From positions 1-37,338 of the IMG/VR virus record IMGVR_UViG_3300009514_000058: a stretch of 37,338 nucleotides of DNA; one strand, 5' to 3'. This document shows positions 4,646 through 34,933 of this stretch, piece by piece. The translations under genes and the position numbers were made by a program. The notes beneath the pieces are model-generated. The model searched no databases and was not told the origin of the DNA. It saw only the letters and a program-made list of their open reading frames with translations. The number at the start of each line of letters is the position of its first letter. The stretch's first letter is position 1. The DNA is from a virus.

Positions 4646-5233
4646 GTGAGCAAACCTTGGGAAAGACAAGACGGTGAGAGTGCAAAAGCCTTCGAAGCCT
4701 TCAAAATCTATCGTGATATGGGTCCAGAAAGGTCTTTATCAAAACTTGAACAGAGCTTTAACGGAACTAAGAGTAAAACATGGCTTGGTGAATGGTCCAG
4801 AAACAATGGATGGGTTGAGCGTGTAGAGGCATTTGATAGTTGGTTAGATCAGCAAGAACTTCAGGCAATGATGCGAGGACGACTTAAAGCAAAGCAGAAA
4901 CGAATCGAACGAGCAGGGCTGATGCAATCCGTAGGAGAGAAGAGCCTGAAAAAGAAAGACACCCTATTAGACAAGAAAACAGATTACACCCTAAGTGACG
5001 ACCGACAACTCATTGCAGATGGGATGAAAGCCGAACGATCAGAGTATGGGGAGAATGATGAGAATCAAGCACAATCAGGCGGGGGAGTGAATTTCATCCA
5101 GATCAATCTAAACGGTCAAGACATCCAAGATATCATCAAGACAGCTAAAGAATGCGGAGTAGAGAAGCGTATCGTTGAAGTAGTGGAGAGTTCCAATGGC
5201 AATCATCATAACGGGGAAAACGGCAAAGATTGA
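4646..5233 (+). CDS. terminase small subunit-like protein, 195 aa
   Basis: This is the probable DNA-recognition subunit of the packaging motor. The first 70 residues fit a pattern I know from phage small-terminase-like proteins: a WERQ.GESAKAFEAF opening, then RSL..L, then a short helix-turn-helix region with WLGEWSRNNGWVERVEAFD. A long basic helical segment follows (residues 75-110), and the C-terminus includes a beta strand (NFIQINLNG) that may mediate oligomerisation. The start is GTG at 4646 with a GTAGGTG site upstream. It sits just before and overlaps by 38 bases the large terminase gene, the usual order. Confidence 0.7.
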   Translation: MSKPWERQDGESAKAFEAFKIYRDMGPERSLSKLEQSFNGTKSKTWLGEWSRNNGWVERVEAFDSWLDQQELQAMMRGRLKAKQKRIERAGLMQSVGEKSLKKKDTLLDKKTDYTLSDDRQLIADGMKAERSEYGENDENQAQSGGGVNFIQINLNGQDIQDIIKTAKECGVEKRIVEVVESSNGNHHNGENGKD

Positions 5234-6554
5234 TTTGCCTTGGAGTTCTTACATTCCGTACAAGCCTCATTCCAAGCAGGCTGTGTTCCTCTTGCTTCCC
5301 ACACTCGAAGCCTTCTTTGGTGGATCAGTAGGAGGGGCGAAATCAGCATGCCTTCTGATGTCTGCCCTACAATACGTAGGCTATCCAGAATATCGGGCAT
5401 TGATTCTCAGACGAACATTTGCACAGTTGGCTAAATCAGGTGCGTTGATTGATGAATCTAAGAAGTGGCTTCTCACAACAGACGCAGAATGGAGAGCGAC
5501 AGATAAATACTGGGAGTTCCCATCAGGTGCAAGAGTGGAATTTGGATATCTTCAGCACGAAGACGATAAGTACAACTATCAATCCGCTCAGTATCATTTC
5601 ATCGGCATTGACCAGATCGAGCAATTCAGTGAATCTCAATATCGGTATATGTTCAGTCGTATCAGAAAGACCACTGACTCTAAGATTCCTCTAAGAATGC
5701 GATCCACGGGGAATCCGGGAGGAGTGGGACATGAATGGGTCAAGCAATATTTCGTTGATCCTGAGACTGCTGACCTTGAAGCCCATCCATTCATTCCATC
5801 CAGACTTGAAGACAATCCTTCCCTTGATCGAGAATCCTATCTCAAAGGGTTGGATCACTTAGACCCCATCACCAGGAGGCAGTTAGTTGAAGGAGATTGG
5901 TCTGCTCGGCATGGCGGGAGTATATTCAAGCGTGAAAACGTCAAGTTCGTAGATGCTATCCCTAATCCTCACAGGAGAATCGTAAGGGCATGGGATTTAG
6001 CGGCGACCGTATCAGAGGATTCTAAGAGGACATCAGGAACCAAAATGTCGCGGAGTATGGATAATGAGTTCTGCATTGAGCATAATATCGCAGGGAAGTG
6101 GACACCGGGCAAGAGAGATGAAATCATTCTTGAGACAGCCAAGCAAGACGGAAGAGAAGTTACAGTGCTTTTGGAAGAGGAGCCGGGATCAGGAGGGATT
6201 GCTCAATGTGATTCAATCATTAGAATGCTCACTGGATACCACGTCGAGACAAAGAAAGTCTCAGGAGATAAAGCACTTCGAGCCGGTCCCTTGTCCACTC
6301 AATGGGAGCGAGGAAATGTATACATCCTTCGAGGGGCATGGAACCAGGATTTTGTAGATGAATACGAAGCCTTCACAGGAACTAAGAATGATGGCTATGT
6401 AGACCGGATCGATTCAGGATCACTTGCCTTTAATTGGTTAGCTGACAAAACATATCGCCCACCCTCTAAAACTCTCATCGCAGGACCAAAGCGTGCCTCT
6501 CCCGGAGACAAGATGCGCGAGACATTCGGCAATTCCCGGCAATACCGACCCTGA
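5196..6554 (+). CDS. terL: terminase large subunit (packaging ATPase/nuclease), 452 aa
   Basis: This is the motor that cuts and pumps phage DNA into the prohead. A Walker A motif GSVGGAKS lies at about residues 43-50, an arginine-rich LILRRTFAQL segment near 69, and a Walker B-like FIGIDQIEQF at 135-144. The position after the Walker B Asp is Gln rather than the more common Glu, a variant I recall from other phage terminases. The coupling motif is RSTGNPGG near 168. The nuclease domain follows: AWDLAAT near 264 (first Asp), VLLEEEPGSGG near 323, and GYVDRIDSGS near 399. The length fits the Terminase_6 type. A GGAGAG site precedes the ATG, which lies 38 bases inside the small-subunit gene. Confidence 0.93.
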   Translation: MAIIITGKTAKIDLPWSSYIPYKPHSKQAVFLLLPTLEAFFGGSVGGAKSACLLMSALQYVGYPEYRALILRRTFAQLAKSGALIDESKKWLLTTDAEWRATDKYWEFPSGARVEFGYLQHEDDKYNYQSAQYHFIGIDQIEQFSESQYRYMFSRIRKTTDSKIPLRMRSTGNPGGVGHEWVKQYFVDPETADLEAHPFIPSRLEDNPSLDRESYLKGLDHLDPITRRQLVEGDWSARHGGSIFKRENVKFVDAIPNPHRRIVRAWDLAATVSEDSKRTSGTKMSRSMDNEFCIEHNIAGKWTPGKRDEIILETAKQDGREVTVLLEEEPGSGGIAQCDSIIRMLTGYHVETKKVSGDKALRAGPLSTQWERGNVYILRGAWNQDFVDEYEAFTGTKNDGYVDRIDSGSLAFNWLADKTYRPPSKTLIAGPKRASPGDKMRETFGNSRQYRP

Positions 6555-34149: not shown

Positions 34150-34933
34150 CCTATTCAGTGGCGGCGGGCTAGGTGACTACGGCCTTGAACTCGCAGGAAT
34201 GGAGATTGCGTTTCAAGTTGAGGTTGACGAATATTGTCAAAAGATATTAAATTTGAGGTGGCCCAATGTCCCAAAATGGAAAGATATTAAACAAGTTAAA
34301 GCAAAAGACCTTCCCAAAGTCGACATGCTTGCCGGTGGGTTCCCATGCACAGACATATCCCTTGCAGGAAAAGCAGTTGGTATTGAAGGAGAAAGATCCG
34401 GTCTTTGGTCTGAAATGTTTAGGCTTATTTGCGAAGTTAGACCCAAATACCGCATCGTGGAAAACGTCTCAGCTATCCTTACTCAACGAGGGGGAATTGG
34501 AATCGTATTGCGAGACTTTTCCCAGATCGGGTTTAATGCAGAATGGTTTACTTTTCGAGCAAGTAGCATCGGAGCCCCACACAGACGAGATCGAACATGG
34601 ATTGTGGCCCACACCTGTGACGACAGATTATTTCAGTCCATGCCATACAGACGCACTGAAAAAAGAACGTGGGGAGAAAAGACCATCTGGAGCAAGTATT
34701 GGGATGAAGTTAGGGCAGGATTTACGGGTCACGAACCAGTACAGCCAATGGAAAAAACCAAAGCAAAGGCTATGGATAAACCCTGGGTTTGCAGAATTTC
34801 TGATGGGGATTCCTCAACAATGGACAGACTTAAACTGCTCGGAAACGGCCAAGTCGTTCAAGTTGTCGAGTGGATCGGGAAAAGAATTTTAGAAGTCGAT
34901 CAAAAGCTTGACGGCGAGGCGTCCACTTTGTAG
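34136..34933 (+). CDS. C5 cytosine DNA methyltransferase, 265 aa
   Basis: It methylates cytosine at C5 in DNA, probably to protect phage DNA from host restriction. Motifs are clear: motif I GSLFSGGGLGDYGLELAG (residues 4-21), motif IV GGFPCTDIS with catalytic Cys71, motif VI ENV at 109-111, motif VIII GAPHRRDRTWIVAH (146-159), and the C-terminal RLKLLGNGQVVQ (231-242). The target-recognition domain is small (about 160-225), so it is a compact version. It starts inside the end of the previous small gene. A 208-codon frame in +1 phase lies inside this gene (34266-34892). Confidence 0.9.
   Translation: MKVGSLFSGGGLGDYGLELAGMEIAFQVEVDEYCQKILNLRWPNVPKWKDIKQVKAKDLPKVDMLAGGFPCTDISLAGKAVGIEGERSGLWSEMFRLICEVRPKYRIVENVSAILTQRGGIGIVLRDFSQIGFNAEWFTFRASSIGAPHRRDRTWIVAHTCDDRLFQSMPYRRTEKRTWGEKTIWSKYWDEVRAGFTGHEPVQPMEKTKAKAMDKPWVCRISDGDSSTMDRLKLLGNGQVVQVVEWIGKRILEVDQKLDGEASTL
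34266..34892 (+). CDS. overprinted protein in +1 frame of methyltransferase, 208 aa
   Basis: This frame lies wholly inside the methyltransferase gene, in the +1 phase. Its start has GAGGTG five bases upstream, a good ribosome site. The translation itself shows a motif set I recall from separately annotated phage proteins: SWKTS at residues 64-68, ETFPRSGLMQNG at 83-94, GLWPTP at 112-117 and NPGFAEFLMGIPQQW with TDL at 172-189. These match the methyltransferase motifs of the other frame (VENV, IGFNAEW, HRRDRTWIVAHT, RLKLLGNGQ). No other same-strand shadow frame here exceeds about 97 codons. Whether it is translated is unknown. Confidence 0.45.
   Translation: MSQNGKILNKLKQKTFPKSTCLPVGSHAQTYPLQEKQLVLKEKDPVFGLKCLGLFAKLDPNTASWKTSQLSLLNEGELESYCETFPRSGLMQNGLLFEQVASEPHTDEIEHGLWPTPVTTDYFSPCHTDALKKERGEKRPSGASIGMKLGQDLRVTNQYSQWKKPKQRLWINPGFAEFLMGIPQQWTDLNCSETAKSFKLSSGSGKEF

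Follow-up and report, generated by a model that had tools for sequence, protein, structure and literature searches.

Gene layout of the methyltransferase locus

We analyzed a viral sequence of 37,338 nucleotides (IMG/VR record IMGVR_UViG_3300009514_000058, positions 1 to 37,338), referred to as a whole as the window, which encodes a C5-cytosine DNA methyltransferase. A second long open reading frame (ORF), here called ALT, lies wholly within the methyltransferase ORF and is shifted by one base relative to it (Table 1). A first-pass annotation made from the letters alone had singled out this 208-codon +1 frame as a candidate overlapping gene, with a GAGGTG ribosome site 5 bases ahead of its ATG, and both features were borne out. 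It had also placed four ALT blocks over methyltransferase motifs. Three placements agreed with the coordinates: SWKTS lies over the ENV of motif VI, while ETFPRSGLMQNG (over DFSQIGFNAEW) and LWPTP (over motif VIII) fall under the VII-VIII region. The fourth needed correction, as the last block, NPGFAEFLMGIPQQWTDL, covers not RLKLLGNGQ but PWVCRISDGDSSTMDRL, just upstream of motif X, which is the expected place of motif IX. The main frame of the window gene has motifs I to VIII and X but no motif IX, and its PF00145 match covers positions 1 to 180 of the 324-position profile.

Table 1. Features of the methyltransferase locus, in window coordinates
Feature	Coordinates	Strand	Basis or remark
C5-cytosine DNA methyltransferase, large (alpha-like) chain, 265 aa	34136..34933	+	PF00145, E = 4.7e-42; motif mapping
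Shine-Dalgarno sequence GAGGTG of the nested gene, 5 nt ahead of ATG	34255..34260	+	direct reading
Nested gene (ALT), +1 frame, ATG start, 208 aa; proposed motif-IX (beta-like) subunit	34266..34892	+	
ALT block SWKTS, above methyltransferase motif VI (ENV, 34460-34468)	34455..34469	+	conserved in alignments A2-A4
ALT block ETFPRSGLMQNG, above DFSQIGFNAEW	34512..34547	+	synonymous constraint 1.76, codons 121-135
ALT block LWPTP, above RTWIVAHT (motif VIII)	34602..34616	+	many relatives have repeated WPTP units
ALT block NPGFAEFLMGIPQQWTDL, assigned by sequence to C5-methyltransferase motif IX, +1 frame, ALT residues 172-189	34779..34832	+	synonymous constraint 2.44 beneath
Methyltransferase motif X (RLKLLGNGQVVQVVEWIGKR), main frame; LLGNGQ at 34835-34852	34826..34885	+	motif mapping

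The nested frame is a conserved coding frame

The +1 frame is a conserved coding frame under selection and more than a shadow of the methyltransferase. If it were only a shadow, the frame would be open through the conserved residues and codon usage of the methyltransferase, and there would be no second protein. We collected 80 viral loci by the methyltransferase frame alone, using the pattern GFPCQ[DP][IF]S and tblastn of the main frame; the collections are skewed toward relatives of the query. A profile of the nested frame built from 13 sequences detected it in all 80 loci (E = 1e-17 to 1e-63). Each gene was compared with synonymous shuffles of itself, which preserve the protein and the codon usage and treat codons as exchangeable within the gene. 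Profile scores averaged 163 bits versus 66 bits in shuffles, and every locus scored above all 50 of its own shuffles. The 66 bits retained by shuffled genes mean that part of the similarity is indeed shadow, and at high G+C content the frame is often open by chance (e.g., in locus L328, P = 0.42). In the window gene, the +1 frame is open for 211 codons from stop to stop, and 0 of 50 shuffles exceeded 169. Measured in the same way, the next longest same-strand shadows among the 20 window genes span 118 codons (gene 5196-6554) and 99 codons, somewhat longer than the limit of about 97 codons given at first pass.

Stops and starts point to the +1 frame. Between ENV and motif IX, a mean stretch of 125 codons, +1 stops were absent from 133 of the 134 distinct loci that have motif IX in this frame, and the +2 frame averaged 5.9 stops. 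Across these 134 relatives, +1 stops came to 0.13 observed versus 3.84 in shuffles. An in-frame ATG preceded the conserved core of ALT in 87% of loci versus 24% of shuffles, and an ATG accompanied by a Shine-Dalgarno (SD) core in 45% of the 134 loci versus 5% of shuffles. In loci L003, L010, and L104, both genes begin as ATGAATG, with starts four bases apart.

Constraint on synonymous sites was limited to the overlap. Among 56 sequences that were less than 60% identical, the ratio of observed to expected synonymous codon identity was 0.97 to 1.05 upstream of the overlap (codons 1 to 60), mostly raised within it (1.2 to 1.8 in codons 91 to 165 and 2.44 in codons 211 to 225), and back to 0.83 to 1.10 at the C terminus of the methyltransferase. 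The ratio was 1.76 beneath TFPRSGLMQNG and 2.44, the upper end inside the overlap, beneath motif IX. The flat N-terminal region argues against mere relatedness as the cause. The first-pass annotation had named freely appearing stops, or no excess conservation at synonymous sites, as outcomes that would refute its gene; stops did not appear freely, and the excess was found.

One result runs counter to a coding role for the +1 frame in particular, in that a +2 shadow profile likewise scored above shuffles (137 versus 81 bits). Where all codon positions are fixed, constraint on the bases shows in every frame; profile scores alone therefore do not name the coding frame, and it is stops, starts, and regional constraint that identify +1. 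The +2 profile was dropped as an unclean negative control and replaced by stops, N-terminal codons, and full-length enzymes.

The full-length enzymes came from a bacterial control comprising all PF00145 matches in 30 bacterial genomes. The nested frame was absent from 25 of 25 full-length enzymes, in which the whole PF00145 profile or both of its ends were matched; their ALT scores were 45 bits or less, and in nearly all of them +1 openness was no better than in shuffles. It was present, with motif IX in +1, in 25 of 25 enzymes whose PF00145 match stops early, 18 of which had been picked from truncated-match rows blind to the nested frame. We also scanned bacterial genomes with a nested-frame motif alone, keeping the best 80 matches to one consensus motif. 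These gave 76 distinct loci, in 73 of which a methyltransferase ORF spans the motif with its frame one base back. The nested frame was free of stops in all 67 loci scored, and titles of the bacterial loci include Alphaproteobacteria, Actinomycetota, Bacillota, Bacteroidota, Synergistaceae, Planctomycetota, and Paceibacterota. The nested arrangement recurs in the methyltransferase genes of numerous phages and of varied bacteria, mostly without annotation. Taken with the viral loci, these tests refute a shadow as the sole explanation, and we assign that reading almost no weight.

The same scan bears on the origin of ALT. A stand-alone nested gene without a methyltransferase, whose absence the first-pass annotation had named as a third refuting outcome, was found at none of the 76 distinct bacterial loci selected by the nested-frame motif. 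A de novo overprinted, independent gene family, for which such homologues are expected, finds no support in these 76 loci. The missing copies do not refute coding, because the nested protein appears to belong to the methyltransferase as one of its subunits.

Assignment of the nested protein to motif IX

By sequence, the last block of ALT is motif IX of C5 methyltransferases. Across the relatives, the nested frame ends in NPxFxEWLMGFPxxWTDL. In the otherwise similar viral enzyme of locus L040, this block stands in the main frame, and Pfam coverage there extends over positions 1 to 323 of 324. The L040 block and motif X aligned without gaps to M.HhaI residues 270 to 314 with phmmer, as a weak second domain of 3.9 bits, and the L040 C terminus matched plant DRM2 (E = 0.007). 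A comparison of the nested-frame profile with the in-frame motif IX of L100 by hhalign gave E = 3.7e-10 over 25 columns. The predicted model of an in-frame enzyme, L187 (identical to L100), superimposed on M.HhaI residues 12 to 327 across the full span (Z = 23.0; root mean square deviation, 3.6 Å; 239 residues), with low confidence in its long variable region.

Modeled by itself, ALT was mostly of low confidence (predicted local distance difference test [pLDDT] score, 57.5), and motif IX (80 to 83) was the sole part modeled with confidence. The protein is thereby predicted to be mostly disordered outside motif IX when alone, as expected of an obligate partner that folds on another chain. None of three ALT proteins had a PADLOC match, and none of 13 had a significant one in Pfam; the profile matched no PDB sequence, and a BFVD fold search with the low-confidence model yielded nothing significant. 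Alignment A2 had no stretch conserved enough to serve as a search motif.

Because the main frame lacks motif IX and the nested frame has it, we consider it highly probable that the nested gene product is the subunit carrying motif IX in a two-chain C5 methyltransferase, the two frames encoding both halves of one enzyme. An overlapping gene with an unrelated job, for example in regulating the methyltransferase or countering restriction, and with an end that merely resembles motif IX, would fit the lack of Pfam and PDB matches to the nested body (TWPRSGMMRNG and the WPTP repeats), as well as the L040-type viruses, which keep the nested frame after loss of motif IX from it. We find this unlikely, given that the main frame lacks motif IX precisely where the nested frame carries it, that natural variants shift it between frames, and that the match to M.HhaI motifs IX and X is free of gaps. 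Thus, of the two origins offered at first pass, an overprinted second family or a shadow, what stood is a genuine overlapping coding frame; an unrelated family did not, its C-terminal block being motif IX. Overprinting is required solely for the part beneath motifs VI to VIII.

Movement of motifs between frames

Motif IX was found in some frame in every locus long enough to reach the region. Its best match among 296 loci was in +1 in 235, in frame 0 in 60, and in +2 in one, and 94 of 106 loci combined motif IX in +1 with motif X in frame 0. In a second viral group (L040:2001-3014 and L107 to L135), motifs IX and X are both in frame 0, and the nested frame stops just before motif IX. In the actinophages BellusTerra, Smooch, ArV1, phiBT1, and Kabreeze, the first ORF stops downstream of motif VIII, and a +1 ORF continues with WPTP repeats, motif IX, and motif X. 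All motifs share a single frame in IrishSherpFalk and its relatives. On a core tree, which was quick and weakly supported, the frame of motif IX switched at least two times, and six times by parsimony.

Some of these variants invite another explanation, namely, that programmed ribosomal frameshifting out of the main frame makes a fusion instead of a separate subunit. A single shift would yield a complete enzyme in L095, L096, L098, L102, and L106, in which a first ORF terminating past motif VIII is followed by motifs IX and X in +1. In the window type, however, a fusion would take two shifts, since motif X again lies in the main frame. Moreover, the majority of loci have an ATG, and almost half also an SD sequence, positioned to start the nested frame directly. 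We therefore judge frameshifting to be very improbable.

The repeats and the outlying groups vary in further ways. In the target-recognition region of L010, L099, L105, and L106, the nested frame holds one to eight repeated WPTPTAxD units, and this unit can switch frame in actinophages. A distant group of methyltransferases, on an Enterobacter plasmid (L297) and in Escherichia coli prophages (L299 to L301), starts with YYNEIDPFAAQWLRNLI and has GEQV in place of ENV; its +1 frame is open for 297 to 343 codons and includes QLNPALSRWLMGLP.

Comparison with known systems and annotations

M.EcoHK31I is a two-polypeptide C5 methyltransferase (YGGCCR; Lee, Kam and Shaw 1995) whose large chain, according to a passage in PMC3404938, has motifs I to VIII and X and whose small chain has only motif IX. 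The large chain in the window is alike in having motifs I to VIII and X without IX, and the second polypeptide likewise carries motif IX (ALT residues 172 to 189). The second gene in the window overlaps the first in another frame; the small-chain gene of M.EcoHK31I, too, is reported to lie inside the large-chain gene in another frame. The likeness to M.EcoHK31I (sequence X82231) is drawn from the described split of motifs, and the small chain of M.EcoHK31I may have a WPTP/TWPRSG body or lack it. M.EcoHK31I differs in that it was described from E. coli and has also been reported on an island of that species, whereas the window gene is apparently an orphan phage gene. Around the latter lie genes for phage replication and recombination (Mu Gam-like, ERF, and DUF3987), and no restriction gene was seen among the neighboring genes checked. 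A scan of E. coli genomes for EcoHK31I found prophage relatives, none of which was identified as EcoHK31I.

M.AquI, another two-polypeptide enzyme, resembles the actinophage variants (L095, L096, L102, and L106), which alone have a second chain of its type, with motifs IX and X. The window differs in that its large chain keeps motif X and its second gene is nested. One-chain C5 methyltransferases (M.HhaI, M.HaeIII, and Dcm; PF00145) share the core fold and motifs I to VIII and X with the window enzyme. Unlike it, they carry motif IX in the same chain (in the order VIII, target-recognition domain, IX, X) and have no nested frame.

Public records treat the two frames unevenly. In 13 of 13 members of A2, it is the nested-frame protein rather than the main-frame one that matches the database cluster phrog_1008 ("DNA methyltransferase"; E = 3.6e-20 for the window), whose label is silent on members lying inside another methyltransferase gene. 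Together with Diva_50 of Paenibacillus phage Diva, annotated as "g49 internal gene" beside Diva_49, this match bears out the first-pass statement that the ALT motif series occurs in separately annotated phage proteins. Both frames are also annotated in Arthrobacter phage ArV1 (067a/b). The main frame is annotated in L001 and L003, and for L008 (Virus Rctr197k_201) and L005 (Microcystis phage Mwe-JY08) the records give all or part of the nested frame as the protein, not the methyltransferase frame. The methyltransferase of Mycobacterium phage Seabastian (L002) is recorded as two genes, gp75 and gp76, because a frame break disrupts both the main and the nested frames, which are intact in related phages such as Spikelee. 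RefSeq has two partial pseudogenes at E. coli locus L299 though its main frame is open, and a pseudogene with an internal stop in the prophage of E. coli PCP07014 (L298:1500-2261), where the main and nested frames each have a stop in the same region. In Streptomyces phage phiBT1 (L102:1130-2177), gene 9.1 is annotated as "DNA methylase may be inactive." The WPTP region and motifs IX and X are found there in a +1 ORF that has no annotation (1248-2177); the enzyme may therefore be two-chain rather than dead.

Proposed mechanism and significance

We propose that one stretch of phage DNA gives rise, through two frames, to two proteins that together would form one C5-cytosine DNA methyltransferase. 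The long frame would encode the catalytic chain, with the S-adenosylmethionine (AdoMet) site, the PC catalytic loop, motifs I to VIII, and motif X. The nested +1 gene, starting from its own ATG and SD sequence, would supply a second chain carrying motif IX, which in one-chain enzymes joins the target-recognition domain to the core. This second chain would also hold a mostly unstructured body with WPTP units, possibly acting in DNA recognition. Presumably, the nested protein is produced, associates with the long chain, and is required for methylation. By analogy with the general role of phage methyltransferases, the phage would probably use the enzyme to protect itself from host restriction.

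Two considerations weigh against this account. Expression, binding, and activity of the nested protein are all inferred. In addition, L040-type viruses have motif IX in the main frame, and their nested frame is still open for 118 to 178 codons with a good SD sequence; for the group, the longest open stretch observed was 164 codons versus 80 in shuffles. Locus L123 exemplifies a nested frame that persists with a good SD sequence after motif IX has moved (TTTAGGAGGTTAATAAATG). The persistence of the nested frame without motif IX in the L040 group means that the frame does something beyond supplying that motif, which makes it plausible that the WPTP body takes part in recognizing DNA. A broader version of the two-chain proposal adds that the nested protein also supplies sequence recognition, with the WPTP-repeat body as the target-recognition subunit, and that the genes are an ancient, fully nested same-strand pair, widespread in C5 methyltransferases of phages and of bacteria from many phyla, whose frames were repeatedly swapped, split, and fused. 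We hold this version tentatively, at slightly less than even chances. If true, catalytic and specificity chains would be encoded on the same bases in two frames.

Long same-strand nested genes are regarded as rare in prokaryotes and double-stranded DNA phages. The known precedent that we found is a single oddity from 1995, M.EcoHK31I, and searches of open-license literature found no account of the overlap as a general feature. The nested gene described here is conserved across methyltransferases less than 60% identical and on contigs of many bacterial phyla, and so offers hundreds of natural replicates, frame swaps included, in which to measure the constraint of dual coding. Databases hold either frame, both, or pseudogenes, and phage and bacterial C5 methyltransferases of this kind that were cloned or annotated as one ORF may lack a subunit.
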